In this document: positions 11,376 to 41,582 of the stretch, in pieces
Position numbering within the stretch: position 1 is the first letter of the stretch
How the letters are laid out: each line of letters starts with the position of its first letter
Source: Anaerofustis stercorihominis DSM 17244
Lineage (GTDB): Bacteria > Bacillota > Clostridia > Eubacteriales > Anaerofustaceae
Assembly (NCBI RefSeq): GCF_000154825.1
Contig: NZ_DS560019.1
Span: 1-64,000, forward strand
Length of the DNA: 64,000 bases
Direction: 5' to 3'
Made by a program: the position numbers and the translations under genes
Notes under the pieces: generated by a model
What the model was told of the DNA's origin: nothing
The model's database searches: none
The model's input: the letters and a program-made list of their open reading frames with translations, nothing else

Positions 11376-11483
11376 TGTTTCCCTCTTAAGTTGTCTTTTA
11401 ATATAATATAGCATTACAAAATTCGAAAGTCCATATTTTCCATAATAATTATTATTTTTATTTTTTATTTCTTTAAACAACAA

Positions 11484-11507
11484 AAAAGACCACTTGAGTG
11501 GTCTTTT
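11484..11507 (-). terminator. Terminator of ilvBNCD
   Basis: AAAAGACCAC-TTGA-GTGGTCTTTT stem, with TTTTTTG following on the minus strand; it lies just beyond ilvD. Confidence 0.85.
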
Positions 11508-11515
11508 AAACTGTT

Positions 11516-13180
11516 TTATTTCATTACCGCGCCTTTATCTGCAGATGAAACGTTTCTTTGATATCTGGCTAACCAGCCGCTTTTAACAGGATCTTTAGGA
11601 CAAACATAAGATTTTCTTCTGTTGTCGAATTCTTCGTCTGTGATTTTTGCATTGATTTTTGAAGCCGGGATATCTATTTCGATGATATCTCCTTCTTCGA
11701 TTAGTCCGATATTTCCTCCGTCGTAAGCTTCCGGAGCAACATGACCTATTGAAGCGCCTCTCGATGCACCTGAAAATCTTCCGTCTGTAATAAGAGCAAC
11801 CGTCTTATCAAGTCCCATTCCAGCAAGTGCTGAAGTAGGATTTAACATTTCTCTCATACCCGGACCGCCTTTCGGTCCTTCATAACGAATGACAACCACG
11901 TCTCCGTCAACTATTTTACCGTTGTAAATAGCGTCAATAGCATCTTCTTCACAGTTGAATACTCTTGCAGGGCCCGTATGTTTGAGCATACTTTTATCAA
12001 CGGCACTTCTCTTTACAACACAGCCGTCTTTAGCTATATTGCCCCAAAGGATAGCAATACCGCCTGTCTCACTGTAAGGACAGCTTACCGGTTTGATTAG
12101 GTTAACATCCTTAATTTCATGACCTTTGATATTTTCTCCTACTGTCTTACCGTTTGCCGTCATAAGAGAAGTATCTATAAGTCCTTTTTTATCAAGTTCA
12201 TTTAAAACAGCTCTAAGTCCGCCTGCTCTGTTCAAGTCATGCATATGAGTGCCGCCTGCAGGAGCCAAATGACAGAGGTTTGGAACCTTTGAACTGAATT
12301 CGTTGAATATTTCAAGGTTAAGTTCAACACCGGCTTCATTTGCAATAGCTAATAAATGAAGTACACTGTTTGATGAACATCCGAGAGCCATATCGCAGGC
12401 AAGTGCATTCCTGATAGACTTTTCATTGATTATATCTCTCGCTTTGATATCTTTTTCAACCAAATTCATTATTGCCATACCGGCTTCTTTGGCAAGTCTT
12501 ATCCTTCCGCTTTCAACAGCGGGTATAGTTCCGTTACCGGGCAGTGCTATACCAACAGCTTCAGAAAGACAATTCATTGAATTTGCAGTATACATTCCGG
12601 AGCATGAACCGCATCCCGGACATGTATTTTCTTCATATTCAAGTAATTCTTCGTCGTTTATCATATCCGCTTTTCTTGCACCTACGGCTTCAAACATCTT
12701 TGAAAGAGAAGTTTCTTCTCCCTTTACAAGTCCAGACATCATAGGCCCGCCCGAACAAACAACTGTAGGAATATTAAGTCTTACAGCAGCCATAATCATT
12801 CCGGGTACGATTTTATCACAGTTAGGAACCAATACCAAACCGTCAAAACAATGAGCGATAGCCATCGTTTCAACGCTGTCTGCAATAACTTCACGGCTAG
12901 GAAGAGAATATTTCATACCGTCATGTCCCATGGCAATACCGTCACAAACACCGATCGAAGGAACTTCTATTGGTGTTCCTCCCGCCATTCTTATTCCCGC
13001 CTTTACGGCTTCGGCAACTTTATCCAAGTGCATATGACCAGGGACAATTTCGCTTTTAGCATTAACAACACCGATGAGAGGTCTGTTTAGCTCTTCTTTT
13101 GTATATCCCATGGCATAGAAAAGACTTCTTGCGGGAGCCTTTTCTACACCCTTAGTAACATTTTCACTTCTTAAGCCCAT
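11516..13180 (-). CDS. ilvD: Dihydroxy-acid dehydratase
   Basis: A 554-residue Fe-S dehydratase for the third step of valine/isoleucine synthesis. Cluster and Mg-site motifs are visible: [10 protein letters not shown] near 122, [18 protein letters not shown] near 190, and [12 protein letters not shown] and [10 protein letters not shown] toward the C-terminus. Normal length. The ATG is preceded by AGGAGATACAT. Last gene of ilvBNCD, 12 bp after ilvC. Confidence 0.97.
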
Positions 13181-13192
13181 TATATGTATCTC

Positions 13193-14188
13193 CTATTTTT
13201 TTAACCAGCTCATCATTTTTCTAAGTTCTGCACCAACTTTACATAATAGATGTTCTGTTTCTTTTCTTCTTGTAGCTAAGAATTTAGCTTTTCCGCCTGA
13301 TTTGAATTCTTGGATGAATTCACTTGCGAATGTACCGTCTTGGATTTCATGAAGAACTTTCTTCATTTCTTTTCTTGTATCTTCTGTTATAAGTCTTGTA
13401 CCTGTTCTGTAATCTCCGTATTCAGCTGTATTTGAAATAGAGTATCTCATCATTTCAAATCCGCCGCTGTTTATAAGGTCAACGATAAGTTTCATTTCAT
13501 GGATACATTCAAAATATGCCATTTCAGGTTCATAACCCGCTTCAACAAGAGTATCGAAACCTGCTTTCATAAGTTCTGTTACACCGCCGCAAAGAACTGC
13601 TTGTTCACCGAATAAATCAGTTTCTGTTTCTTCTTTGAATGATGTTTCCAAAATCCCCGCTCTGCCTGCTCCGATACCCGCAGCATATGCAAGTGCATAA
13701 TCTTTAGCTTTACCTGAAGCATCTTGATATACAGCTATCAAACTAGGAACTCCTCTGCCTTCAACATACTGACTTCTAACAGTATGTCCCGGCCCCTTAG
13801 GAGCAACCATGATAACATCGATGTCTTTGGCAGGTACGATTTGGTTATAATGGATATTAAAACCATGAGCAAACATCAATACGTTGCCTTCTTTCATATG
13901 TTTAGCAACCTGAGTTTTGTAGATATCAGCAGCTAATTCATCAGGAACCAGCATCATTACCAAATCCCCTGCTTCAGCAGCAGCTTCGATATCCATAACT
14001 TTAAGTCCTGCTTCTTCAGCTTTCTTAACGCTTGCAGAGCCTGGTCTTAAACCTACAACAACATCAACACCGCTTTCATGTAAGTTTTGAGCATGAGCAT
14101 GTCCCTGGCTACCATATCCGATGATAGCTACTGTCTTTCCGTCTAATAAACCTAAATTACAATCTTGATCATAATACTTTTTAATCAT
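13193..14188 (-). CDS. ilvC: Ketol-acid reductoisomerase (class I)
   Basis: A 331-residue class I KARI that isomerises and reduces acetolactate with NAD(P)H and Mg2+. The Rossmann motif [13 protein letters not shown] is at residues 25-37, [10 protein letters not shown] near 130, and the KARI knot contains [11 protein letters not shown] and [14 protein letters not shown] with the metal-binding acids. AAAAGGAG lies before the ATG. Co-transcribed with ilvBN upstream and ilvD downstream. Confidence 0.97.
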
Positions 14189-14246
14189 TTTAAATATATC
14201 TCCTTTTGTATGTATAATTTATAATTAATTTTATTAATTAGCTATT

Positions 14247-14744
14247 TTATCTTACAGGTTCAAGTCCTCTTGCAATACCTGTAATACCTGTCCTGCAGAC
14301 CTCTACTACATCGTAGCAGTCTATCATATTCATAAATCCGTCCAGCTTTTCCGGCGCTCCGGTAAGCTCGATGATCATGCTGTCTTTGCATAAATCTATT
14401 ATCTTACCTCTGTAAATATCAACTATTTCCTTAAGAGAAGTTCTCTCGGTCTTATCGGTCTTGATTTTCACAAGCAATAGTTCTCTGTATAAAGAGTTGC
14501 TTGAATCCAGTGTAAATATATCTTTTACGACTTCCAGTTTTTTAGTCTGAGTCATGATTTGATATAAAGACTGATCTGTACCGTTAAAAACAATAGTTAT
14601 CCTTGATATGTCTTTATCATTTGTGGTAGATACTGTAAGAGAATCAATATTAAAACCACGTCTTCCAAACAAACTGACAATCCTTGTTAAGACATTTGAT
14701 TGATTATCAACCAAAATGCTTATAACTTCTTTTCTATAAGCCAT
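14247..14744 (-). CDS. ilvN: Acetolactate synthase small (regulatory) subunit
   Basis: A 165-residue IlvH/IlvN type. An N-terminal ACT domain (ISILVDNQSNVLTRIVSLFGRRGFNIDSL) binds the feedback inhibitor valine, and the C-terminal domain ends GITGIARG. It partners IlvB encoded 16 bp upstream. Confidence 0.95.
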   Translation of the reverse strand: MAYRKEVISILVDNQSNVLTRIVSLFGRRGFNIDSLTVSTTNDKDISRITIVFNGTDQSLYQIMTQTKKLEVVKDIFTLDSSNSLYRELLLVKIKTDKTERTSLKEIVDIYRGKIIDLCKDSMIIELTGAPEKLDGFMNMIDCYDVVEVCRTGITGIARGLEPVR

Positions 14745-14760
14745 GTTAATTCTCCTTTAT

Positions 14761-16422
14761 TTAATTAATTATCATATCATCTACGGTTCCGCCGTTAGGT
14801 ATCATAGGCAGAACTCTTTCAAGTTCTTCTATCCTGCAATCTATCCAAACAGGGCCGTCTATTTTTAGTGCCTTTTCATAAATATCTTCGAATTCTTCCA
14901 AAGTCTCAGCCCTAAAACCCGTTAATCCGAATGCTTCGGCAAGTTTTACAAAGTCTGTTTTTCTGTTTAACACAGTTTGAGAATATCTTTTTTCATAAAA
15001 GACTGTCTGCCACTGATAAACCATTCCGAGAACACCGTTATTCATTATAATGGTTATTATTGGAAGATTTTGACTAACTGCGGTACAAGCTTCATTTAAA
15101 CACATATGGAACGAACCGTCTCCGACAAACTGGATAACTCTTTTATCCGGTGAACCCACTGCTGCACCGATAGCAGCTCCGTAGCTATATCCCATAGTTC
15201 CGAGCCCGCCGCTGGTTAGGAATTTTATCGGCTTCACATTTTTCAGATACTGTGCCGCCCACATTTGGTGCTGTCCTACATCCGTAACGATTATAGGTTC
15301 CTTATCCGCCATTGCACATGCGGTGGTTACGATATCTCCCGGATGCAAATCTCCCTTATAATACTTATCTTCTACGGGAGTTTTCCTCCAAAGTAATGTT
15401 TGGTCTATCCATTCTTTACGGGATCTCTTTTCAATCAAAGGTAATAATTTAACTAAGAAATCCTTTACGTCACTTATAACGCTTTTATGTACAAATACAT
15501 TCTTATTTATTTCACTCATATCAAGATCTACTTGAATTTTTTTAGCATGACTTGCAAATTTGTTCGGATTAAGCGCAACTCTGTCGCTGAATCTCGTTCC
15601 GAGAGCCAAAACCAAATCTGCATTATGTATTGCTTTATTTGCGGCTACGGTACCGTGCATACCTATCATACCGAGCCTTCTTTTGTTGTTGTATCCCAAA
15701 ACACCCGTTGCCATCAAAGTATTGGTTGCGGGTATATCACCTTTTGATAAAAGCTCGTTCAATTCATCCAATGCTTCGGCAGCAACAACACCGCCTCCGA
15801 AATATATGACCGGTTTTTCCGATTCGTTTATAAGTTTTGCGACTTCTTCGATATCTTCTTCTTTTGCAACCGGATTTTTATATAATAAAAGAGGTTCAGA
15901 CTTTTCATATTCAGTCAGTGCGGCGGTCACATCTTTGGTTATATCCACCAAAACAGGACCTTTTCTTCCGCTGTTTGCGATCCTAAAAGCATCTCTGAGG
16001 GCAGGTGCCAGATCTTCAACTTTATTTACAAAGAAATTATGCTTTGTAATGGGAAGTGTCACTCCCGTAATACATATTTCCTGAAAAGAATCTCTTCCTA
16101 TCAAATTATCCGGAACATTCGCCGTAATGGCAATCATTGGGATACTATCCATAAATGCCGTTGCAATCCCGGTTACCAAGTTGGTAGCCCCCGGACCGCT
16201 TGTCGCAATTACAACACCCGTCTTACCTGTCGCTCTGTAATAACCATCGGCAGCATGAGCAGCACCCTGTTCATGTGCCGTAAGGACGTGCTTGATTTTG
16301 TCACTGTACTTGTATAAAACATCGTAGATGTTTAAAGCAGCCCCTCCCGGATAGCCAAAAACGGTATCAACACCATGCTCTAATAATACTTCTGCTAAAA
16401 CTTCAGAACCTGTTAATTTCAT
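14761..16422 (-). CDS. ilvB: Acetolactate synthase large (catalytic) subunit
   Basis: A 553-residue ThDP enzyme, condensing pyruvate with pyruvate or 2-oxobutyrate. The catalytic Glu lies in HEQGAAHAADGYYRATG near 50; the ThDP/Mg motif is GDGSFHMCLNEACTAV...NN near 430-460; the FAD region is RFSDRVALNP. AAAAGGATG upstream of the ATG. First gene of ilvBNCD; no leu or ilvA gene is adjacent, so leucine synthesis must be encoded elsewhere if present. Confidence 0.97.
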   Translation of the reverse strand: MKLTGSEVLAEVLLEHGVDTVFGYPGGAALNIYDVLYKYSDKIKHVLTAHEQGAAHAADGYYRATGKTGVVIATSGPGATNLVTGIATAFMDSIPMIAITANVPDNLIGRDSFQEICITGVTLPITKHNFFVNKVEDLAPALRDAFRIANSGRKGPVLVDITKDVTAALTEYEKSEPLLLYKNPVAKEEDIEEVAKLINESEKPVIYFGGGVVAAEALDELNELLSKGDIPATNTLMATGVLGYNNKRRLGMIGMHGTVAANKAIHNADLVLALGTRFSDRVALNPNKFASHAKKIQVDLDMSEINKNVFVHKSVISDVKDFLVKLLPLIEKRSRKEWIDQTLLWRKTPVEDKYYKGDLHPGDIVTTACAMADKEPIIVTDVGQHQMWAAQYLKNVKPIKFLTSGGLGTMGYSYGAAIGAAVGSPDKRVIQFVGDGSFHMCLNEACTAVSQNLPIITIIMNNGVLGMVYQWQTVFYEKRYSQTVLNRKTDFVKLAEAFGLTGFRAETLEEFEDIYEKALKIDGPVWIDCRIEELERVLPMIPNGGTVDDMIIN

Positions 16423-16460
16423 ATCGCATCATCCTTTTCTAAATTTTTATTGACCTTTCT

Positions 16461-16490
16461 ATTATATACAATTTTGTATACAAAGTACAA
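16461..16490 (-). promoter_or_regulatory. Probable ilvBNCD promoter
   Basis: Minus strand: TTGTAC (16485-16490), 18-bp spacer, TATAAT (16461-16466). The spacer contains TTGTATACAA, a palindrome partly repeated as TTGTATATAA over the -10, which could be an operator. No T-box leader was recognised between here and ilvB. Confidence 0.6.
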
Positions 16491-27716: not shown

Positions 27717-29268
27717 CCTTTGTTTGCAGGCATTTCAACTGCTTCAATGCATTTATAGACGATTTGGATTCTTTGTTGCCTGCGACCATTTACTTTTTCT
27801 GCTTTTAATACGATTATACTATCAACGAACTCTCGTATAATCTATGCATTCAATTCTGTGATTTCTGCATATTTCTTTACTAATGATAAGAATTACTGTG
27901 CATTGAAACTTTCTTCCTTAGCCCTTGATAGGAAGAATTTCAGTTCAATGCTCCTTTCCGAAAGCTACTTCTGTTCACTTTCGTAAGTAGCAGTCATTTT
28001 CATAAATCGTTCATCACTGATTTTCCCATTAATGTTATAATCATAAAGCCTTTGAATGATGATATCCAGCTTTGTGATACGAGCCTGTGACTGTTCATAT
28101 TCTTTCTTGCTTTCACGAAGGTCACGGTCTAATTCTCGTGCTTTGGACTTGGTAACCATCTGTAAGAATTCATCTTCATGTTCTCTAGCAAAGCTGTAAA
28201 TCATCTAGCAGAAGTTCCTCAATAACTACATTGCGTATCTGATGGGATGTACAGATGTGCTTTCCTTTCTTACGATAGGTGGCACATACCATATGTTTCT
28301 TATCATGTTTCCAACCCTTAGACCTTACTTGATATAGTTTGGCTCCGCAGTCTGCACAATAAACCATTCCAGATAGAATAGGCATTTCTCCCATTGGAGT
28401 TCTGCGTCTTCTGGAATCACGGATTTTCTGAACTACATCAAATACTTCCTTATCAATGATAGCTTCCTGTGTACCCTCAAATATCTGCCATTCAGAAGGG
28501 TTATTCTTAATTTGCTTCTTCAGCTTATAGGACTTTCTGTAGGTTTTGAAATTTACAGTATTTCCAATGTATTCTTGTTTTTCAAGAATATGTACTATGT
28601 AGAATCCTTCCAATCATATGGATCATCTGAATCCTTTCTGGCTGCAAGGGGTAATCCTTTTGTCTTAGCGTAATCGACTGGTGTCAATACCTGACGTTCC
28701 CTTAAAATATTGTCTATCTGTGTTGGTCCATTCCCTTGCATGCAAAGATGGAATATTTCCTTTACGACTTCTGCATCAGGTTCATCAATAATCCAATGAT
28801 TCTTATCATCAGGGGCTTTCATATATCCATATGGTTAATTGGTACATAATGGATTTCCTGATTCGCCCTTAGCTTTAAACACTGCTCGGATTTTCTTGCT
28901 TGTATCCTTGGCATAAAATTCATTGAAAATGTTGATGAATGGTGTGAGGTCACTTTCCTGCTGATTATTACTGTCAACACCATTATTAATTGCAATAAAT
29001 CTAACTTCTGCTTCCGGGAAGGCTATCTCGGTATAGTAACCAACCTTAAGGTAGTCTCGCCCAAGAGGTAGTCTCTCCCAAGACGGCTCATGTCCTTTAC
29101 AATGATTGTTCCAATAAGATCTGCGTCCATTTTTGCAATCATACGTTTAAAGTCCGATCTATCGAAGATAGTACCACTCACACCATCGTCAACCAAAAAT
29201 TTTGTGTTAAGGAATCCATTATCATCAGCGTACTTCTGTAATATTAACTTTTGAGATGCGATTTGTCA
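27704..29268 (-). pseudogene. Decayed large serine recombinase (DUF4368-type), 5'-truncated
   Basis: Reading the minus strand from 29268 gives QKLILQKYADDNGF and FLVDDGVSGTIFDRSDF (resolvase catalytic domain), VKDMSRLGRDYL, the recombinase domain (residues decoded by 28,822-28,185, with zinc-ribbon pair CADCG ... CATYRKKGKHIC), and a C-terminal region with REFVDSIIVLKAEKVNGRRQQRIQI. Lesions are a missing N-terminus with the catalytic Ser, an in-frame duplication of LGRDYL, a TAA before PYGYMK near 28,835, frame breaks near 28,600 and 28,200, and stops at 27893-27895 and 27842-27844. It was once an integrase of a transposon or IME; it cannot be functional now. Confidence 0.88.
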
Positions 29269-29295
29269 AGGGTGTTTTCATCTAAAATACGGTGG

Positions 29296-30069
29296 TTACA
29301 TCCCTCGGGCAACCACTACAAACCGCCCATTTTTTGTGTGATAGCTGCAGGTTGATAAGGTCAAAAGAGAATCTCCATGTTTTGCATTGATTCCGGTATC
29401 ATACAGAGCGGCCTCTTGTACCTGCTCCATATATTCTGTAAAAATATCAGGATCACACAAATCCGTATATTGATAGAATCGGAAGACATTGCTGGCATCT
29501 TGTGAATACACCTCTGAATAGAAAGCGGCTATGACTTCATATTCGCCACTGTCAGAAAGCGTATCAAATCGGATTGATGGATGCTGCCCCCCAAAATCGC
29601 GGTCGGCATAGGCGAGGAGCGTGGCAAACATGGAGCCGTTTTTCATGTTATGGCCATAAATGAGATAGTTCCCACAGCCCTCATAGCAGGAGGCCGACAG
29701 AAAGGGAACTCCACTTTGCGAATCCTCACCGTTAAAGTCCCGGCGCAGATAATATTCCTCATCCTTTGGCGTGTGCATCACTGGGTAATTCAGCTCGGTT
29801 CCTTCTATGGAAATCCAACCAAAGAAGTCCGGGTTTTGCTCTTTCAAAGCTGCGTAAGGGGAGGAGGCAGCGTCAGTTTCCGAAGGCTCCTGCGGCTGTA
29901 CCGGATCAGAAGCCGCGGAGGGCTGCTTTATCGTTTCTTCTAGCCGTTCAAAGTTATCCTGCTCTCGGTGAGCCAGCGATATGATCCCATAGACCATATA
30001 TGCGGAGACGAAGAACAAGACACTGAACACAAGGAGCAATATAGAACGCAGTTTGTTTTTTCTTTTCAT
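29296..30069 (-). CDS. Class B sortase
   Basis: A 257-residue membrane-anchored transpeptidase. An N-terminal transmembrane segment (residues ~8-32) is followed by a Ser/Ala-rich linker and a SrtB domain: FFGWISIEGTELNYPVMH, catalytic His in YLIYGHNMKNGSMF, catalytic Cys in LTLSTCSYH, and Arg in GRFVVVAR. It lies directly downstream of the giant LPXTG-like protein, its presumed dedicated substrate (motif TPQTG). Base composition is visibly G+C-richer than the host. A hairpin between the two genes may tune the ratio. Confidence 0.93.
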   Translation of the reverse strand: MKRKNKLRSILLLVFSVLFFVSAYMVYGIISLAHREQDNFERLEETIKQPSAASDPVQPQEPSETDAASSPYAALKEQNPDFFGWISIEGTELNYPVMHTPKDEEYYLRRDFNGEDSQSGVPFLSASCYEGCGNYLIYGHNMKNGSMFATLLAYADRDFGGQHPSIRFDTLSDSGEYEVIAAFYSEVYSQDASNVFRFYQYTDLCDPDIFTEYMEQVQEAALYDTGINAKHGDSLLTLSTCSYHTKNGRFVVVARGM

Positions 30070-33100: not shown

Positions 33101-36100
33101 CCGGTTTCATTCTTCAGGGTGAACAGCATGTCCACCACGTGATTTGCGTCCTTCAGATAGACCGTGTTCTTGTCAACCTCAAAGTTGGAATACTTCGCCG
33201 TATCGAACTCAGCCGTAGAACCCTTTTCCGTTATTCTTGCGCCGAAAGTGAAGGTCAAGCCAAGCCTTGCCGCCACTACAGATAGCTTAGTACCCTTTGC
33301 GTTGACATTGAAGGTGCTGTACCGCACCCCCTCATCCATAACCTGATATTGTGCCAAGGTACCATTGTTTGATGTTGAGGTCAGTGATGCGCTCTTGAAC
33401 CGTACGCAGTCTCTCATATCGAGGGTCATAGCGTCGGCATCCTTGGCGATCTCCATATCAAAGGAAATCCCAACCTGATACTGCCCCAGTTCCGGGCCGA
33501 ACCAGCCGACTTTTACGGGGTTATCTTTGTCCGTGAATGTAATCTTGTACAGCTTGTAACCGGTTGCGGTGGTGTCGTCCGCCGCAGCTGCGGCAGAAGT
33601 CACTTCCCCAAACTTGTATGCGGTGTCGGGTATTTCTGTTCTTGTGGGACCCCGTACCGTCTCCGTGACCGCATCGAGCAGGAATACCTTATCCGCCTTC
33701 CTTCCAACCTCTTGGTACAGCTTGAGGTTTGTGACCGTGATTTTTTCCGGCAGACGGATATAGATTTCCTGATCCGTTGTAATATTGTTGGAGGAATAGG
33801 GATAAGCGGAGGAGCTGAGCAGACCATTGAAGGTAATGGTGTCTCCCGCTGTTGCGGAGGTCTTGCTCAGGACAGGCACTCGCTCCAAAGTTCCTTCTTT
33901 ATACGCTTGCTCCATGGCCAGAGGGATCTCGCCCCTTGTGTTTGTGACCTTTACGGTATAGTTGCCCGATTTGGCCGTGCTATCATCTGAACCGGTATCG
34001 TACATTTTCATGGAAGCAAAGTTGGAATACGTAGCCTCGTCTGCGGTCAGCAGCTTGCCGAAGGTGGTGGCGTATCCCGATGTGGGATCCTGGTCACGAG
34101 AGGACACATAGCCCACGTAATCCTTCTCATAGCTGCCTACGTTGGCCTTGATCTTGGTGAAATACTCGCCCTCGACAAGGTTTGCCATATTAGCGGTAAA
34201 GGTGACAAAGCCGCCGCTGCTGGTGAGGGGGCCGCTATACTTTTGCTCGCTTGGGTTCTTTGTCGTCGTATACCAGACTTCCACAGTATTGCCCGTGGTT
34301 GCAGGAATCTTCTGGGCGGTGACGCCGATTTTATCATTGTTTGCGTAGGTGAATTCCACCGTCTTTGCAGCGCTCTTATCGCCGCCCTGGTTGACCACAT
34401 GGAACTGTCCCAGATAATAGATAATATCGGAATCGCCTGCGTAATTATTATAGATTGGCTGATTGTTGGCTTTTCCCGTCACACTCATGCTCTCTCCTGC
34501 TTGGACCGTGAAGCTGAATGTCGTGCAGTCACCATTATAGAGATACCATGCACTGTCATCCTGCCAGGTGATCGTTCCGCCCACTGCGGAGGCAACGCTG
34601 GTAGTGGGCGTCTTCCCCTCGTAGCATCCGGGGGCTGTCTTACCGGTGTTGAGAATCGAATCGCTGCCCCACTTGACGGCATTTGTAGTTGTGACGTCAC
34701 AATCAGACGTCCACTTAAAGTAGGGCGTAAAGTAGTCCTGGCCATACTCCAGATACAAGTTTTCCCATGTCAGTGTGACGGTATGATCGATATCGTTTTG
34801 CGTCTTCTTGAAGTTAAAGCCGTCCTTATAGCCGCCGTCCGCATCCTTGTGATTTTCCGGATCCAGCAGGTTGGGCCTGGTGGACTGTCCCGCAGGGTCA
34901 TAGGTGACATGGTCGAATTCCGCATAAATATTGCTGCCATTTTTTGTGTAGTATGGCAGGGCAATGGTGATCTCCAGCTTCTTAAAGAACTGGGGCATAT
35001 CGATGTAGTCCTTGTCCGGGTTTATCCAGATTTGCCGCAGGGCAAAGGGCTGGCTCGCCGCCGTGGGCACGCCGGTCTTCACACCAACCCGGGACAGTCT
35101 GGGACCGGTCTGGATGGCTCTGTCGTCACCAGGCGTATCATTGTATTTGCCCGTAATCTTAGGAGTTACGGAGATTGTCTGATATGTTTGATCGTCTGTG
35201 TAGACTTCGATTTTGAACGAAGAATCCTCAAGTTTCTGCTCCGACCTTCTGTTCCACAGGGTGGTGTCCGGAGCCAGAACGATATTAAAGCTGTTCTTTT
35301 CCGCCGTATTTTTGAGGGAATAGGTGATGGTGCCATTAGTAGGACAGTATCCGCCGTAGTTATTCTTACTATGCAGCTCGTCAATGCTTTCAGGCGTTAC
35401 GCTCTCCGCCATACCGCCCCGCTCAGGAATCGGATATTCCACCACGGTCAGCCCATCCGGCACGGTGATCTTCACCTTTTTGTTCGCCAGATTCAACTTG
35501 CTTTCCACCTCAATGTGCAGGGTAAACTGCTTGGAAAAGTCAATGGAGAAGGAACCTCCATCTGACAAAGCCTGATTGTTCACTCCCTCCGCCCGGATCT
35601 CGGCGGTGGCAATCTTCATTCCGTCGACAGCGCTATCGCCATCTTCCAGCGTCTGAACATTCAGGGTCTCCACAAACGCTAAAAGCTTGTCGATCTTGTC
35701 TGCGTCGATCTGGGTCTGTTCTTCCCTCGCCATGCGTTCGTATGCCTGTTTGGCGGCAATGGCCTGCTCTGAAAGGCTAAGCATACCTTCTTCGTCCAAC
35801 TCCTCTGTCTTCTCCAGCAGAGCAAGGACGGCGTCGATCTGCTCTTCCACGGGACAGATGGGGCAGATAAAGCTGCACACGGGGTTCCCCTCTGTATAGC
35901 CGCATGTCTCATCATGCTCCATATGGTGTTTGCACATTTCTGCTCCGACTGTTTCCGGCTGTTCTTCAATATTGGGCAAGGTATCCGTTTCCTCCTGCCC
36001 ATCCACATTGGATGACTCTAACAGCCCCTCCGTGGCATCAGCACCCGGAGAGACACTCTCCGCACTCTGTCTTTCTTCTTCAATGAGCGGCTCATCCCGC

Positions 36101-36213
36101 ATAAGTTCCTCGGCCGCCGATACTTCCATCATATTTGCGCTGAGCAGCACAACACAAAGTGCCACACTGACAGCTCTGCACCAAAAATAAGGCCTGTGTT
36201 TATGTGATTTCAT
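30136..36213 (-). CDS. Giant LPXTG-like multidomain surface protein
   Basis: About 2,025 residues. Signal peptide (cleavage near VSAAEE), then a Cys/His segment (CKHHMEHDETCGY...CSFICPICP) and a helical region around 95-190, a long beta-rich adhesin-like portion, an SdrD-B-like domain near 1215-1290 (FIDKNFNGTYDKGTDELYTG), and four InlB/Listeria-Bacteroides-type repeats separated by Ca-binding-like D-x-N-x-N/DG motifs near 1511, 1651, 1755 and 1855. A Pro-Thr-Asp wall-spanning linker precedes the sorting signal TPQTGDE, a hydrophobic helix and a Lys/Arg tail. The ATG at 36213 has AGGA eight bases upstream. Probably an adhesin anchored by the next-door sortase; expression is likely controlled by the invertible segment upstream. 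Confidence 0.93.
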   Translation of the reverse strand: MKSHKHRPYFWCRAVSVALCVVLLSANMMEVSAAEELMRDEPLIEEERQSAESVSPGADATEGLLESSNVDGQEETDTLPNIEEQPETVGAEMCKHHMEHDETCGYTEGNPVCSFICPICPVEEQIDAVLALLEKTEELDEEGMLSLSEQAIAAKQAYERMAREEQTQIDADKIDKLLAFVETLNVQTLEDGDSAVDGMKIATAEIRAEGVNNQALSDGGSFSIDFSKQFTLHIEVESKLNLANKKVKITVPDGLTVVEYPIPERGGMAESVTPESIDELHSKNNYGGYCPTNGTITYSLKNTAEKNSFNIVLAPDTTLWNRRSEQKLEDSSFKIEVYTDDQTYQTISVTPKITGKYNDTPGDDRAIQTGPRLSRVGVKTGVPTAASQPFALRQIWINPDKDYIDMPQFFKKLEITIALPYYTKNGSNIYAEFDHVTYDPAGQSTRPNLLDPENHKDADGGYKDGFNFKKTQNDIDHTVTLTWENLYLEYGQDYFTPYFKWTSDCDVTTTNAVKWGSDSILNTGKTAPGCYEGKTPTTSVASAVGGTITWQDDSAWYLYNGDCTTFSFTVQAGESMSVTGKANNQPIYNNYAGDSDIIYYLGQFHVVNQGGDKSAAKTVEFTYANNDKIGVTAQKIPATTGNTVEVWYTTTKNPSEQKYSGPLTSSGGFVTFTANMANLVEGEYFTKIKANVGSYEKDYVGYVSSRDQDPTSGYATTFGKLLTADEATYSNFASMKMYDTGSDDSTAKSGNYTVKVTNTRGEIPLAMEQAYKEGTLERVPVLSKTSATAGDTITFNGLLSSSAYPYSSNNITTDQEIYIRLPEKITVTNLKLYQEVGRKADKVFLLDAVTETVRGPTRTEIPDTAYKFGEVTSAAAAADDTTATGYKLYKITFTDKDNPVKVGWFGPELGQYQVGISFDMEIAKDADAMTLDMRDCVRFKSASLTSTSNNGTLAQYQVMDEGVRYSTFNVNAKGTKLSVVAARLGLTFTFGARITEKGSTAEFDTAKYSNFEVDKNTVYLKDANHVVDMLFTLKNETGREFSEEDAHAFYYFIPVPEKDDLWDSHMQEQAFEFDMSLTRAPELQGTSAEHILVTYATEIDSNAQAGEEKHYTNTANYKTEKELLDGCATDEEKAARWKKVKMIRIAAKPGIDSIPKNAELKVNMRLEPMFDENADLVGSEINFGPCGVSPYSVGNTLNQGHNPLPRIQVEFQTGIIGGEFFIDKNFNGTYDKGTDELYTGSVTVEANHSNGNENCTEGDAAHKTTASDGKFKFTGRRADTYHVTVTNPGSTDANGKNPLKFSLPESGGKFSLDAGENTATASVVLDMNKKPNDIEDAGSLLIGFQQPHTVTFSVPNGQGGTTTKVWHGDKLGDVIPTVNADKGYRFTGNWTVGANTYTADQLKEVAISSDVTVKAEVKQLYSLTYDLNGGSGAAAPATTWYIQGEKVSPDYTGTGNLKKGEKTIFVGWSKTQIEKALPEDAAQADIDKIISHDEHIMPAQNVTLYAVYAVDGNGNGNPDYNDDAVHVRYHGNNGDYTDILCPHHHVVGATAQLSTSGTVSGKSLSHDQPASAASGEVTSHTFTFTDKTTGNAHIFIGWSTSPILDKVIKTKADYDGLANSIVTEVTMEKAKVDGRNADTDGNTNVYAVWAADRNGNKTADYLEEYTLTYNNNAQQGGTVSTVPTDNHIYIPGDKAELSEDIPTHDNVDGKKVVFVGWTEAQTNSIFSRADTAPVMVTEVTFGSANKTVYAAWGYDENDNGTADVLETYTLTYDLNGGNEAAPAKVSGIAKNTEVELTEEKGFTRNPNEIFVGWSVTKHDAALTAQDKQEDVEKFLITGATYRIITADVTLYAVWAIDSNGDGTPDYQTTYTVTYELNGGKAVDGETYDEENVKPGETITVKAAPTRNGYTFDGWYDGTETHQPGDNVIILDADLKLTAQWKKDLNPTNPTDPTNPTKPTEPTDPTRPTDPTTSSKPDKSNDNTPQTGDETNLALWLVLLGISGMGAMITLLSSKRKYRGKYSKKK

Positions 36214-36308
36214 TGATATAATCCTCACTCTCCCTATAAATACAAACTATCTCACGATAAAAGAGACCAAAAGCTAAAAAATGAATGTTGTGTTTTGCAT
36301 TAGAGCTA

Positions 36309-36334
36309 TAATCAAAAGGTGTACCTTTTGACAA
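36309..36334 (+). repeat. Inverted recombination site IR-L of the invertible segment
   Basis: 26 bp: 12-bp half sites TAATCAAAAGGT and ACCTTTTGACAA around a central GT. It is near-palindromic and hix-like (TnATCAAAA half-site). Compared with the reverse complement of IR-R it matches 21 of the 23 bases at 36312-36334, including the GT core. Confidence 0.8.
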
Positions 36335-36411
36335 TAGCCCTCCGACAGAATTCCTGCACTTCAGGGGCAAGAAAAACTCCTCTGATACACACTCAAAATC
36401 CTCAAATGCTC

Positions 36412-36440
36412 TTGAATTTCAGGCTGTTTTGTTGTATGAT
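36412..36440 (+). promoter_or_regulatory. Promoter inside the invertible segment
   Basis: TTGAAT (36412-36417), 17-bp spacer, TATGAT (36435-36440). It points right, antisense to the recombinase gene and away from the surface-protein gene. Confidence 0.7.
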
Positions 36441-36456
36441 TTGAAAATGAGAAAGG

Positions 36457-36482
36457 TTGTCAAAAAGTACACCCTTTGACAG
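36457..36482 (-). repeat. Inverted recombination site IR-R of the invertible segment
   Basis: Plus strand TTGTCAAAAAGT-AC-ACCCTTTGACAG; its reverse complement aligns with IR-L with the same GT core. Opposed cores predict inversion rather than deletion for a serine recombinase with a 2-bp overlap. Confidence 0.8.
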
Positions 36483-36493
36483 CTTTATTACTG

Positions 36494-37168
<675 letters not shown>

Positions 37169-38875
37169 TTACCGTTCCTGTTCGGGATGTTTGGGCTTTC
37201 TCTTCGTTTGGTGTTGTTTTTGTTCTCTCTGCTTTGCTCGCAATCGTTCCGTCAAAGACCGCTCATCAGCACTCTCATTCAGCAGATTTGCTATACTACG
37301 CTTGCTGTCATACATACGGAGTATATCATATTTATCTCCGTAGGCTTCCTGTACTCTCTGTGTTGCTCGGCGTTCCTGTTCGGAGCGAATAGTCAGCCGT
37401 GCATCGTGAAGTTCTATCGGGTCAAACTCTGCCGCCTGTTCTTGCAGCTCGGCATACTGCTTTAAGGCGCTGTCAAGCTCGGTAGCGTACTTGGTTTCGC
37501 TGGCTTCCAGCTTTTTCAGACCGTCCTCAAAAGTGCGGATTTCCCTTCGGAGCATATCGGCAGTAGCGTTCTCAGGGTATTGAAGCCGACGGAGCAGCAT
37601 TGCCTTTTCTGTCCGCAGTTCTTCCAAATCCTCAGTCAGCTCTGCTATGCGGCTGGAAAGTTCCCTGTGTTTTAGCACATGAATGACAGGCATAGCTTTT
37701 TTCTCAGTCAACAGCGTTTTGTGCTCTTTGGATTTCGCCTTGATTTTATCCGCAAGGGCGGTGTACTCCGCCATATCCTCCCGATACATTTTCAAGGATT
37801 TGTTGATTGCCTGCTTGCCGCTTCCGATGTGCAATAGCTGATACTTGAAAATAATCATATTCCCACGCAGCTTTTCCATTGCATCTGCGATGGCGGGTAC
37901 TGTGTTCTTAACTGCCTGCATCAGCTTTTTGACCGCCGCTTTCAGTTCACGCAGCAGAGCATTGTCAGCCTTGATTTGACGGTTGAGTTCACATCTGTCA
38001 GAAACAATGCCTTTCCGCTCCAAAGCACGGGCAACCACACCTTCGTGAATCGTTGGCTGTTCGTCCAAACCTCGCTCGGCGTGGCTTCGGTGGTCGATGC
38101 ATTCATCGTGACCGTATCGCTCCAAATAGCGGTTGGTCACATCAGCCCATGCCTTACGCCACGCCACAAGCTGTTCCTCACTGTTCCAACGTTCGGAGAT
38201 AGGATTTTGCCTGCCGAACTTGGTGCTTTTGGGATATTTGTTGACACGCTCATATCCATGCTTCTCAGCTTCGGAGGGTGTCATATACACTTTTTTCCTG
38301 CCTACCTTGTACTGATATTGTTTCTCCCATCCGTCCGTCTGCGCCGCCTTGAACTCGGCGGCGGTAAAGCCCCGTTCCTCACCATTCTTTATGCAAAGAT
38401 ATTCTTTCTCAGTCTTGTATTGCCATCTGCCGTTTTCGTCCAATGGGCGCACGGTCAGCATGATGTGGGCATGGGGATTATGACCGGGCGGGTCAGGATC
38501 GTGAATGGCCACATCCGCACACATTCCGTCTGCAACAAAGCTGGCTTGAATAAAATCGGATAGAAGCTCCTGCCATTGTTCTTTCGTCAACTCCACAGGC
38601 AGAGTCGGAACAAACTCACGGGCAAGTCGGCTGTCCTTGGTTTTCTCATTTTCTTCAACAGCGTTCCATAAAACGGCCCTGTCCTGCCATTCCTGCAGTG
38701 CGTACTCCGGCAGGAACACCTCCCGCCAGACAAGCCCTTTCTTTCGAGTGTAATCGTGCCGTACTCCATCGTAGTCATTTAAAATGTTGGAGCAGCTCAG
38801 ATATGCAGAAGCTGCAACAGCGGATCGTCCTGCACCTCGGCTGATAACCTTTGCTTCCAAGTGATAAATAGCCAT
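37169..38875 (-). CDS. mobL: MobA/MobL-family relaxase
   Basis: 568 residues. The N-terminal ~230 residues are a MobQ-type relaxase: IYHLEAKVISRGAGRSAVAASAYLS, EFVPTLPVELT, and the metal-binding three-His motif GHNPHAHIMLTVRP near residue 133. The C-terminal part is long coiled coil. It nicks oriT and pilots the strand during mobilization by a helper conjugation system; no type IV secretion genes are in the window. An IncQ-like nick sequence lies about 320 bp upstream. G+C-richer than the host. Confidence 0.93.
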   Translation of the reverse strand: MAIYHLEAKVISRGAGRSAVAASAYLSCSNILNDYDGVRHDYTRKKGLVWREVFLPEYALQEWQDRAVLWNAVEENEKTKDSRLAREFVPTLPVELTKEQWQELLSDFIQASFVADGMCADVAIHDPDPPGHNPHAHIMLTVRPLDENGRWQYKTEKEYLCIKNGEERGFTAAEFKAAQTDGWEKQYQYKVGRKKVYMTPSEAEKHGYERVNKYPKSTKFGRQNPISERWNSEEQLVAWRKAWADVTNRYLERYGHDECIDHRSHAERGLDEQPTIHEGVVARALERKGIVSDRCELNRQIKADNALLRELKAAVKKLMQAVKNTVPAIADAMEKLRGNMIIFKYQLLHIGSGKQAINKSLKMYREDMAEYTALADKIKAKSKEHKTLLTEKKAMPVIHVLKHRELSSRIAELTEDLEELRTEKAMLLRRLQYPENATADMLRREIRTFEDGLKKLEASETKYATELDSALKQYAELQEQAAEFDPIELHDARLTIRSEQERRATQRVQEAYGDKYDILRMYDSKRSIANLLNESADERSLTERLRAKQREQKQHQTKRKPKHPEQER

Positions 38876-38930
38876 TCGTTTTCATCGTCCTTTCATTTTT
38901 ATTTTTTCTGTTTCTCTTTTTAAAGAGAAA

Positions 38931-38963
38931 ATGGGTGTGTCGTGTTATTCGGCACACCCATAA
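38931..38963 (-). repeat. Inverted repeat upstream of mobL
   Basis: TGGGTGTG...CACACCCA stem (with CG pairs inside and one mismatch), followed on the minus strand by TTTTCTCTTT. It is terminator- or operator-like between DUF3847 and mobL. Further short palindromes fill 38,975-39,110 (for example GGCGGCAATATGCCGCC). Confidence 0.55.
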
Positions 38964-39165
38964 CTGAGATAAATCTGCCAGTGGCAGGTTTTCGCAGGCA
39001 GACGGCGGGATGGGGCGGCAATATGCCGCCACATCGTTTTGCTGACAGAGCAAAATAAAGAGCCGTCTGCACAGGCGATGTTCGCTTGCGACATTGCCTG
39101 CCCCCTCTGGAGAAGTGTCCGGCGGACGCTTCGGGAAGAGCGCACGGTCCGACCATCGGGAAGGA

Positions 39166-39206
39166 TACCACCGCCTGCTTTACAGGTGGTGAGTAAGTGC
39201 GCCCTT
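39166..39206 (+). other. Candidate origin of transfer (oriT), IncQ/MobQ type
   Basis: TAAGTGCGCCCT at 39194-39205 is identical to the nick-region core I recall for IncQ (RSF1010-type) oriT. It is preceded by an imperfect inverted repeat, ACCACCGCCTG...CAGGTGGT (39167-39190), as in those origins. It lies upstream of mobL in a gene-free palindrome-rich stretch (38,876-39,258). Confidence 0.75.
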
Positions 39207-39258
39207 CGGGATAAAAGAAACGGGACGCTCGATTGCCCGAACGCCCCTCGTCGTAAGT

Positions 39259-39456
39259 TTATCGTCTTAGTCCGCATAGAAAGTCCTCCAATTCGTCAAG
39301 ATTTAAGGAAACAACGCTCGGAAAGACCTTTTCCAGTATCGCTCCCTCCTGGATCAGCCGTCGTGTCCGAGCTTTTCGCTCTTTCTGCCGGTCACGCATT
39401 TCGGTTTCCTCCAATCGGTGCTTGGCTTGCAGTAATTTCTTCTCGTCTGTAGTCAT
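39259..39456 (-). CDS. DUF3847 family small protein
   Basis: 65 residues, highly charged and helical (LLQAKHRLEETEMRDRQKERKARTRR), ending LNLDELEDFLCGLRR. This resembles DUF3847 proteins that sit upstream of MobA/MobL in gut Firmicutes mobile elements; function is unknown, perhaps a relaxosome accessory. I start it at the ATG giving MTTDEKKLL; GGATT lies upstream. Confidence 0.75.
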   Translation of the reverse strand: MTTDEKKLLQAKHRLEETEMRDRQKERKARTRRLIQEGAILEKVFPSVVSLNLDELEDFLCGLRR

Positions 39457-39615: not shown

Positions 39616-39972
39616 TCAGAAGCTGTCAGCGAAGTCCAATGCCGCCGAAATATTCTCGTCATCCTCGGCAGACAGAGCTTCAACGGCGGCAGGCGGCATG
39701 ACGGTCAGCATACCGACGGGTGCAAACCGCAAGCCCTGTTCAATGGCTTCTGTCACACGCCGAAGAAAAGCATCCTCTTTTTCACGGGTTTCCAGATACG
39801 GGTCATTTTCAAGCCGTTCCTGCCGTTCAAAATAGTCGTTGATGGCAGTAACAATCGCCTTGCTGTACGAGCGATACTGCTTTTTGTTCATCTGCTGTAA
39901 ATGCTCGTAGGCCCGGCGGTCATCTTCATCCGCAAGATTTAAGCGTAGTGTGGTCGTGTAGATCTGCTTCAT
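39616..39972 (-). CDS. ParR-like ribbon-helix-helix protein
   Basis: 118 residues. The N-terminal TTTLRLNLADEDDRRAYEHLQ and RSYSKAIVTAINDYFE fit a ribbon-helix-helix DNA-binding domain; the C-terminus is acidic (SAEDDENISAALDFADSF), as expected of a ParR segment contacting the ParM filament. Its start overlaps the stop of the ParM-like frame by 4 bp (ATGA), the normal coupling of parM-parR. With parM truncated the system is probably non-functional. Confidence 0.75.
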   Translation of the reverse strand: MKQIYTTTLRLNLADEDDRRAYEHLQQMNKKQYRSYSKAIVTAINDYFERQERLENDPYLETREKEDAFLRRVTEAIEQGLRFAPVGMLTVMPPAAVEALSAEDDENISAALDFADSF

Positions 39973-41582
39973 ACGATGCCGCCTTTTCTGCTCTGCTTCT
40001 GCCCAGCAAGCAGCTCATAGCCCTTTGCGGTAGCGCAAATATCATCGTTGATAATCACACGGTCTTTGTCATAGCTGCCGAAGTTTTTGAGAATACAGCT
40101 TCCGCCGCCTACCACATACAGGCGCATCAGTTCGGAATCGTATTCATGCTCACGCAATCTGCGGAAGATGCCCTCCGCATATTCGGTTGCGGTATCACGG
40201 ATGGTGGTCAGATAACGCTGGCTGATGTCTGCTGTGCCGTGACGGATAACACGCTCAAGGACGGTTTCATCCACCGATACGCCAAACTGCTTCATCAGAT
40301 TTTCACGCACGGCAAGCATACACTGATTGGTGCCGTATTTTTCGGTAAAGCACTTTTTCGCAAGAGGGCGGCACTCGTTGATATACATGACATTCATCGT
40401 GCCGTTGCCAATATCGCAGAGCATATTGATGCCCTTGAACTCACGGAGCTTTTCGGCAACAGGTAAGGAACAATATATACACTTCTTAGTCACAGTCCCT
40501 ATTGACGTACAAGTCGCTTTCTCATAAATGATATTATTACTTGAATAATTATGAGATGTACATTTCTTAAACTCTACTTCTACGTTATAATCCACATTAC
40601 CTAAGGTAAACTCATAAGGTTTTTCAAGGTGTACTCCGTTTACAGTTACTTTATATATGTTACCAACATCACTGTTTATATTTAATTTTACTTTACTTCC
40701 GACTTTTACCGATGCCGCTTCCTTTATTATATCACTTCCGCACCTTAATTCCACACTTCCGCCGTCATTATACTTTAGCGTCAAAGAAACATATTTATCA
40801 CTCTGATCCTCCTTAGGATATATATGATCGGTTATTTCCACAACAGAATTATTATATATCTTAAAATCATCTGCCACACCCTTCAGTGCATTTTCACCTA
40901 TACTCGTAACACCTCTCGGTATTGTAATGCTCTTCAAAGAACGGCATCCGCTGAAACAGCTTTCGCCTATAGTTTTCAGATTATCAGGAAGGCATATACT
41001 TTCAAGTTCCTTACATCCATCAAAAACGTAGTCTCCTATGGATGTTATATCATCCGACATCGTTATATTCCTTAAAGATACACACCCTGCAAAAGTATAT
41101 TTTTCTATAGTGCTTATAGAGCAGGACAGATTTACATTTTCAAGAGAAGTACATTTGGAAAAAGCACTTTCACCTATCCTTTTTACCCCCTGAGGTATAT
41201 TTACAGAGGTCAGCCCCCTACAATTAACAAAAGCATTTTCGCCTATTTCTTTTAAATTTTTATTGAATATTACTTCTTTTAAATTTGGCAGAGATGTAAA
41301 TGTATATCTTGATATTTTCACAAGACTTTCATTCAACGTTATTTTTTCTATATCCAACCAGCAAAAAGAATATTCCCCGAGGCTTACAACCTTCTTACCA
41401 TCTATCTCATCGGGAATGACCACTTCCTTCTCACTTCCCGTATAACTTTCTATTTCAATATTACCGTCCTGAAGTTCTTTATATGTATACTCTCCGTTCG
41501 ATGCTTTTACCTTTGCACCTTGAAAAGATAATAATACTACCGCTGAAAATATAATACAAAATAGTCTTACAGATCTCTTCAT
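39969..41582 (-). CDS. Chimeric ORF: BspA-type LRR surface protein fused to the C-terminal half of ParM
   Basis: 537 residues. Residues 1-27 are a signal peptide; ~30-245 are BspA-like leucine-rich repeats (for example ENAFVNCRGLTSVNIPQGVKRIGE); ~250-370 are beta-rich and end in a Cys-x-Cys segment TKKCIYCSLP. From VAEKLREFKGINMLCDIGNG to the end is the C-terminal half of an actin-like ParM/StbA ATPase, including VVGGGSCILKNFG. The AT-rich host half switches to G+C-rich sequence at about 40,450-40,465. Both genes are truncated; the join is in frame. It may be a real insertion junction or an assembly join. Confidence 0.9.
   Translation of the reverse strand: MKRSVRLFCIIFSAVVLLSFQGAKVKASNGEYTYKELQDGNIEIESYTGSEKEVVIPDEIDGKKVVSLGEYSFCWLDIEKITLNESLVKISRYTFTSLPNLKEVIFNKNLKEIGENAFVNCRGLTSVNIPQGVKRIGESAFSKCTSLENVNLSCSISTIEKYTFAGCVSLRNITMSDDITSIGDYVFDGCKELESICLPDNLKTIGESCFSGCRSLKSITIPRGVTSIGENALKGVADDFKIYNNSVVEITDHIYPKEDQSDKYVSLTLKYNDGGSVELRCGSDIIKEAASVKVGSKVKLNINSDVGNIYKVTVNGVHLEKPYEFTLGNVDYNVEVEFKKCTSHNYSSNNIIYEKATCTSIGTVTKKCIYCSLPVAEKLREFKGINMLCDIGNGTMNVMYINECRPLAKKCFTEKYGTNQCMLAVRENLMKQFGVSVDETVLERVIRHGTADISQRYLTTIRDTATEYAEGIFRRLREHEYDSELMRLYVVGGGSCILKNFGSYDKDRVIINDDICATAKGYELLAGQKQSRKGGIV

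Follow-up and report, generated by a model that had tools for sequence, protein, structure and literature searches.

A putative promoter-inversion switch beside a small serine recombinase in Anaerofustis stercorihominis, and a family of similar loci in Clostridia

The invertases Hin, Gin and Pin act on inverted sites of about 26 bp with a 2-bp core. Hin is under the control of a remote Fis-bound enhancer, within which earlier phasing experiments have been described, and the relevance of helical phase in invertase complexes is already known (PMC3798978). In gut bacteria, invertons with an adjacent invertase have been reported, some of them carried by Bacteroidales ICEs, where they precede a highly variable region (PMC8748976), and several accounts describe invertible promoters with neighboring invertases, including promoters on conjugative elements whose downstream genes vary (PMC8748976, PMC11892184, PMC5903667). 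Clostridia-like bacteria have been counted as carrying fewer invertons, with a median of 3 per genome in Firmicutes_A (PMC11892184). Here, we describe a locus of Anaerofustis stercorihominis DSM 17244 that is very probably a dedicated site-specific inversion switch run by the small serine recombinase next to it. It lies in the window, by which we mean the whole 64,000-nucleotide stretch that was analyzed (positions 1 to 64,000 of contig NZ_DS560019.1, assembly GCF_000154825.1). We favor this reading because the segment between the sites is inverted in a relative, the promoter geometry is mirrored between orientations, and the site cores covary.

On the minus strand, the order is MobQ relaxase, recombinase, a pair of sites with 128 bp between them, surface protein and sortase (Table 1); the proximal site begins 14 bp beyond the recombinase stop codon. 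The first-pass annotation had claimed that two inverted sites share one core, and both claims are confirmed. The arms at 36312-36334 and 36457-36479 are complementary at 21 of 23 nucleotides (91%), and the cores are reverse complements of each other, so recombination between them would invert the interior and not delete it. The distal 20-mer reads TCAAAAGGT-GT-ACCTTTTGA and the proximal 20-mer, on the plus strand, TCAAAAAGT-AC-ACCCTTTGA; both are palindromic, with half-sites that the first-pass annotation had likened to hix sites. A scan of the window allowing up to 3 mismatches gave three matches, all at these two sites, the palindromic distal site being counted on both strands, compared to a mean of 0.02 chance matches per shuffled window (100 shuffles). 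The degenerate 20-mer TCAAANRGTNNACYNTTTGA was found at only two places, both at the switch, in the whole assembly of 2,284,703 bases (five contigs, 99% complete). Unlike a shufflon, with its several sites and alternative coding ends, this genome has two such sites only, both intergenic.

Table 1. Features of the switch locus and its neighbors, in window coordinates.
Feature	Position	Strand	Remarks
Sortase	29296..30069	-	Pfam Sortase
Surface protein (cargo), ~2,025 residues	30136..36213	-	List_Bact repeat; putative sorting signal
Distal (adhesin-side) recombination site	36312..36331	.	core GT at 36321-36322
Putative invertible interior, 128 bp	36332..36459	.	inverted with 96% identity in L034
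Predicted promoter	36412..36440	+	-35 TTGAAT, 17-nt spacer, -10 TATGAT; directed away from adhesin (OFF)
Proximal (recombinase-side) recombination site	36460..36479	.	core AC (+ strand) at 36469-36470
Small serine recombinase, 215 aa, presumed invertase of the switch	36494..37141	-	Pfam Resolvase
Terminator-like hairpin	36578..36603	+	inside recombinase 3' end; positioned to stop OFF-state transcript
Terminator-like hairpin	37153..37183	-	between relaxase and recombinase
MobQ relaxase, upstream of recombinase	37169..38875	-	not a general neighbor of the switch family

The recombinase has the features of a small serine recombinase, namely a match to Pfam Resolvase (PF00239; 5e-28) and the catalytic Arg, Ser and Asp. 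R18, S20, R55 and D77, which we take to be the catalytic Arg, Ser, Arg and Asp from alignment with PDB relatives, are identical in 122 of 122 aligned recombinase rows (the window copy being counted twice). Among solved structures, Sin (2r0q, E 3.5e-29) and not Hin is nearest to it in sequence; the gamma-delta and Tn3 resolvases follow, together with 4m6f and 3uj3, both titled "DNA-invertase", while a second Sin entry bears the title "putative plasmid resolvase dimer". The protein falls outside the Mpi family, scoring 42.7 bits with NF009949 against a cut-off of 272. The same genome encodes another member of the family (G000:C1:721-1314), which is 57% identical and lacks the site pattern downstream.

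The layout recurs beside related recombinases. Fetching 256 loci gave 227 distinct recombinase ends after repeats with an identical last 200 nt were dropped, and a site pair was present at 126 of the 208 recombinase loci having at least 250 bp downstream. By recombinase identity, pairs were found at 19/22 loci at 80% or more, 65/79 at 70-80%, 23/44 at 65-70%, 12/32 at 60-65% and 7/31 below 60%. The 82 of 208 loci without a pair of this pattern include 3 of the 22 at 80% or more and 14 of the 79 at 70-80%; several have one recognizable site or none. When 87 patternless loci were searched more loosely, other half-site pairs appeared in 6, at distances of 115, 115, 137, 138, 138 and 157 bp, compared to 0 in 261 shuffles. 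As judged from these pairs, the half-site changes beside more distant recombinases while the layout stays.

The cores of paired sites change together. Complementary core dinucleotides were present in 121 of the 126 pairs, where 50.5 would be expected if the cores were independent; we drew this statistic from the 126-pair count because an earlier set of loci had been preselected by an inverted-repeat search. The proximal core is neither GT nor AC in 23 pairs. Thirteen of these are AA/TT, TT/AA, AG/CT or CT/AG, and therefore the overlap sequence covaries; 8 are AT/AT, which is palindromic and uninformative about direction, and 2 are not complementary. The window's GT/AC cores are directional, compared to the palindromic AT in those 8 of 126 family pairs. 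All five non-complementary pairs among the 126 occur at recombinase identities of 65% or less, and two more come from loci where less DNA was available downstream, L092 among them at 77%.

The first-pass annotation had proposed searching related genomes for both orientations and had held that orthologous loci fixed in one orientation, with diverged repeats, would count against a switch. The search gave the opposite outcome. In L034 (NZ_JALIFO010000003.1, Cuneatibacter sp. NSJ-177), the best of 80 named-genome loci kept from 511 relatives, the interior is flipped and the flanks are colinear. Its recombinase is 95% identical to that of the window (93.8% in DNA, with 28 of 40 differences at third codon positions), and the same relaxase-recombinase stretch is present, in a different species and with different cargo. 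The two switches align at 95.8% over 168 bp only when one is inverted, with colinear DNA on either side; the interiors reach a global score of 266 when one is inverted, compared to 31 without inversion. In the window, the inner half-site with ACTTTTTGA is the one nearer the recombinase; in L034, it is the one nearer the cargo. The inner variants have thus traveled with the interior while both outer half-sites stayed, which places the exchange at the core. Genome G906 supplies a second inverted pair, L242 and L195, whose interiors are 81% identical when inverted and whose recombinases are 71% identical. Here, a flagellin gene (Pfam Flagellin_N) lies beyond the distal core by 574 bp in L242 and 415 bp in L195, distances that make control by the switch less certain. 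Both orientations, as expected of an inverton, are therefore seen between related loci (window and L034, L242 and L195); of 21 interior pairs scoring at least 50, 2 are inverted and 19 have the same orientation. Complete cassettes were also found on two contigs of a viral collection (L257 and L267), in the same orientation.

The promoter claimed for the interior is present on the plus strand (TTGAAT at 36412-36417, 17 nt, TATGAT at 36435-36440), and the locus has the short inverted repeats around a promoter that mark an inverton, the promoter being assigned by motif. Scored by consensus only, it is at chance level, with 3 promoter-like sites in 36000-39300 compared to 3.8 expected, and a rival minus-strand match, TTGACA-16-AATCAT, which partly overlaps the proximal site, scores equally well. 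Because consensus sigma-70 scoring proved too noisy for calling orientation, we adopted a motif learned from 118 interiors (one N-filled interior was left out), TTGAAA-17-TGGTATAAT, that is, TTGAAA, 17 nt and a TATAAT preceded by TGG. In the window, the score of this motif is 12.8 in the direction of the recombinase and 1.7 in that of the adhesin; in L034, it scores 10.3 in the ON direction and 3.1 in the other.

Across the 118 loci, the motif points toward the recombinase (OFF) in 91 and toward the next gene (ON) in 17, with 10 undecided. In 78 of the 108 decided loci, 26-32 bp separate the end of the motif from the core of its exit site (67/91 OFF and 11/17 ON; 28 bp in the window), compared to 0-6 of 58-68 decided in five shuffles of the interiors. 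Such a mirrored geometry is what inversion would predict. In 6 of the 17 ON calls, the -10 falls outside the 26-32 bp range, and some ON calls may be miscalled. The excess of OFF in assemblies (91 of 108 decided) may reflect either enzyme bias or selection. Family promoter geometry and the inverted relative both support the OFF orientation originally assigned to the window, and they support reading the L034 assembly as ON. Inversion would place the -10 about 136 bp ahead of the start of the adhesin.

Terminator-like hairpins antisense to the recombinase were found in 10 of 121 loci, compared to 0-4 in ten synonymous-shuffle sets. The window's hairpin, within the recombinase coding region, is shared with L034. 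An antisense terminator is thus enriched, yet it occurs in too few loci to be a family-wide feature.

Distances between cores follow the helical repeat, with clusters near 115, 125, 136-137, 147, 157, 167 and 177 bp; the 148 bp of the window are about 14 turns. The first set suggested the period (resultant length R=0.71 at 10.5 bp, n=77), and later-fetched loci therefore served as the test. These loci, less than 90% identical to the first set and less than 85% to each other, gave R=0.745 (n=35), and R=0.80 once the main peak was removed (n=22). Within 5-16 bp, the best period was 10.4 in the first set and 10.45 in the later one. When distances were jittered by up to 7 bp, 0 of 20,000 trials reached this value (p ~5e-5), and representatives below 70% identity gave p=0.0099 (n=10) and p=0.0066 (n=11). 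In all, 99 of 119 pairs deviate from whole turns by at most 2 bp, where 45.6 would be expected, and a deviation above 3.2 bp is seen in 2 pairs, compared to 46.1 expected. The interiors of these 119 pairs measure 85-167 bp, and the count omits two further pairs with complementary cores, at 209 and 257 bp. DNA has a persistence length of about 150 bp. The natural reading is that the two recombinase dimers would need to lie face to face over a loop of roughly this short length, with a twist too stiff for half-turn compensation. We found no natural spacing rule between two recombination sites in the literature we searched, which mostly excluded subscription journals.

In the window, the presumed target of the switch ends in PQTGDE, a hydrophobic stretch and KKK, assigned by inspection as a sorting signal. 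Its ATG at 36213 is 96 bp to the left of 36309, and the listed reading frame starts from a GTG at 36228 (2,030 aa). The first-pass annotation had placed the adhesin on "the opposite strand". This holds relative to the promoter only; the recombinase and the adhesin are both on the minus strand. The closest NCBIfam model to the sortase is a class B sortase, at 141.9 bits and below the cut-off of 153.75. Next to the sortase, at 27965-29290, lies a large serine recombinase gene split into several reading frames, one piece of which holds both Recombinase and zinc-ribbon domains; in L034, a 478-residue frame with these domains lies beyond the sortase. On the relaxase side, a single frame at 39969-41582 has a leucine-rich-repeat protein at its N-terminus and an actin-like part at its C-terminus. 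The 90% match of L035 to the window extends only to 40460, about where the actin-like part starts, and therefore the edge of an element may here have joined two genes in frame. A coupled relaxase-recombinase operon was also considered and is weakened by the terminator-like hairpin that separates the two genes.

The first-pass annotation had treated recombinase, switch, adhesin and sortase on a MobQ element as one self-contained cassette. Its invertible promoter, adjacent recombinase and OFF state are supported; that unit is not, as other loci carry other cargo. The recurring and widespread unit, as delimited by comparison among loci, is the recombinase with its switch, about 830 bp, and the cargo varies. 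Against L034, the window DNA is 79-99% identical from 39205 through most of the relaxase, 67-74% at the relaxase 3' end, 93-98% over the recombinase, and at chance level from 10-40 bp past the distal site. The gene directly past that site in L034 is unrelated, although a sortase and a Cna_B-type protein resembling a sortase substrate follow further on. L042 and L044 share recombinases (98%) and interiors (96%) and become unrelated just past the distal site. Similar breaks occur in L102/L103, L037/L056, L072/L085, L078/L112 and L186/L188; across these pairs and L042/L044, recombinase identities run from 98 down to 68%. In the other 10 of 17 pairs, similarity continues past the distal site to a variable extent (for example, L070/L179, L061/L071 and L250/L252). 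A match to the window's MobQ relaxase lies directly upstream in 4 of 76 listed loci (window, L034, L035 and L039; 77 examined, some with no more than about 1.5 kb of flanking DNA).

Pfam scans covered the first gene past the switch in 40 loci, drawn from 88 candidates, and 5 of the 40 genes had no family; we chose the longest open frame near the switch as cargo, so some assignments may be wrong. The matches span leucine-rich-repeat, dockerin, SHIRT and collagen-like proteins, a VWA/GBS104-type pilin, a GH16 enzyme, a polysaccharide deacetylase, acyltransferases, AMP-binding and TPR-TIR proteins, a radical-SAM protein, a PP2C phosphatase, a kinase and a protein whose N-terminus resembles that of type IV pilins. 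In L066, the switch precedes an apparent restriction-modification operon (10809-16470), possibly a phase-variable defense, whose products include Eco57I-type and MmeI-like methylases and a T5orf172/ResIII protein. Of 89 nearby frames of at least 100 residues, 46 satisfied a crude rule for signal peptides. Among ten cargo proteins run through PADLOC, 5 matched models, as single proteins (methyltransferase, PglW, kinase, viperin and a few others). DNA searches of plasmid and phage records gave 8 and 3 partial matches, respectively, at 60-80% identity. Counting recombinases and not proven switches, the family occurs in 20 of 391 genomes across the class (E <=1e-75), in 36/398, 2/18, 12/58, 38/250 and 2/9 genomes of five families (E <=1e-80), and in 39 of 198 relatives at a looser E of 1e-30.

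We propose that the neighboring recombinase probably flips the promoter and so sets the giant surface protein on or off. By analogy with known serine recombinases, dimers would bind both palindromic sites, which would synapse across the short loop formed by the interior; the tetramer would then cut at the 2-bp cores, and subunit exchange would religate the interior inverted. In the OFF state, the promoter, if active, would fire toward the recombinase 3' end, giving an antisense RNA that would meet the terminator-like hairpin present in the window and L034. In the ON state, it would drive the next gene, here the adhesin, through a leader containing the site palindrome, and the adhesin would be phase-variable.

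Alternatively, the sites could be res subsites at which a Sin-like recombinase resolves multimers of the MobQ element, the promoter being incidental. The Sin-type PDB matches, including the entry titled as a plasmid resolvase, and the adjoining relaxase agree with this, yet we find it barely credible: res subsites of the Sin type are directly oriented, whereas the cores here are inverted and covary in nearly every pair, the interior is inverted in L034, the promoter geometry is mirrored, and the MobQ relaxase is rarely a neighbor. Site-like matches near the cassette beyond the pair are also few (47 with up to 4 mismatches in 1.31 Mb, compared to 36 in shuffled loci). A third site upstream of the recombinase, which would allow excision as a circle, was considered and is not supported, such matches having no fixed place; L072, L119 and L173 have one close extra match each. 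That the segment inverts through another recombinase acting in trans is very improbable to us. Master invertases of this kind exist, such as Mpi in Bacteroides (PMC5903667), and the second, 57% identical recombinase of this genome could be a candidate. Against this, the site pattern is unique to the switch locus in the assembly, in locus after locus the paired sites come just after the stop codon of a recombinase of this family, and the altered half-sites beside more distant recombinases keep the same place.

A less remote, still unlikely interpretation is that the switch was formerly active and is now locked OFF in this strain. The site arms differ at 2 of 23 bases, the element looks degraded, with the neighboring large serine recombinase in pieces, and OFF is the commoner state. 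The small recombinase frame is nevertheless intact and keeps the catalytic residues that were checked, its differences from L034 fall mostly at third codon positions, the window cores are complementary, and mismatches between paired sites like those of the window also occur in many other loci. We therefore regard a switch operated by the adjacent recombinase, and presumably still inverting in this strain, as the best explanation.

More speculatively, a cargo-independent cassette of about 0.8 kb, made of recombinase and promoter, might spread among Clostridia, flip by an enhancer-free, same-face synapsis across a short loop, and exchange cargo when the same recombinase joins the distal sites of two coexisting cassettes. 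We consider this possible but doubtful as a whole; it is raised because both the spacing in whole turns and the sharp end of homology past the distal site, as in L042 and L044, fit it. Homologous recombination or another insertion could produce the same picture of exchanged cargo. The whole-turn rule itself predicts that adding 5 bp to an interior would inactivate a switch and that adding 10-11 bp would leave it active. The enzyme-site family can be found by sequence, and the likely target gene and its ON or OFF state can be read from an assembly. Cargo can thereby be listed, from surface proteins, pilin, flagellin and envelope enzymes to a restriction-modification operon, TIR-domain proteins and a kinase, and the cassette could perhaps serve as a very small genetic switch for anaerobes.

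Each known system resembles this family in part. The window recombinase is, like Hin, Gin and Pin, a serine recombinase with inverted sites that have a 2-bp core, and it has "DNA-invertase" chains among its PDB matches; Hin is regulated by a remote Fis-bound enhancer, whereas the interiors here are short and the sequence is closer to Sin. Sin and the gamma-delta and Tn3 resolvases are the best PDB sequence matches; unlike in those systems, the sites here are inverted, the cores covary and the interior appears to invert. Mpi is likewise a serine recombinase controlling invertible regions, at least 13 of them and scattered (PMC5903667), compared to one local pair in this genome. The flagellar and cwpV switches of C. 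difficile are also short invertible segments in Clostridia that control surface features, but RecV is a tyrosine recombinase (PMC5903667). The Bacteroidales ICE invertons have a promoter between inverted repeats, a nearby recombinase, variable downstream genes and mobile elements in common with the loci described here; their invertase tree is rooted on tyrosine integrases (PMC8748976), whereas here a small serine recombinase is paired with palindromic sites that have a 2-bp core and whole-turn spacing. Within the literature searched, what is new is a family of serine-recombinase switches in Clostridia with a fixed layout, covarying cores, a mirrored promoter and sites spaced by whole helical turns.
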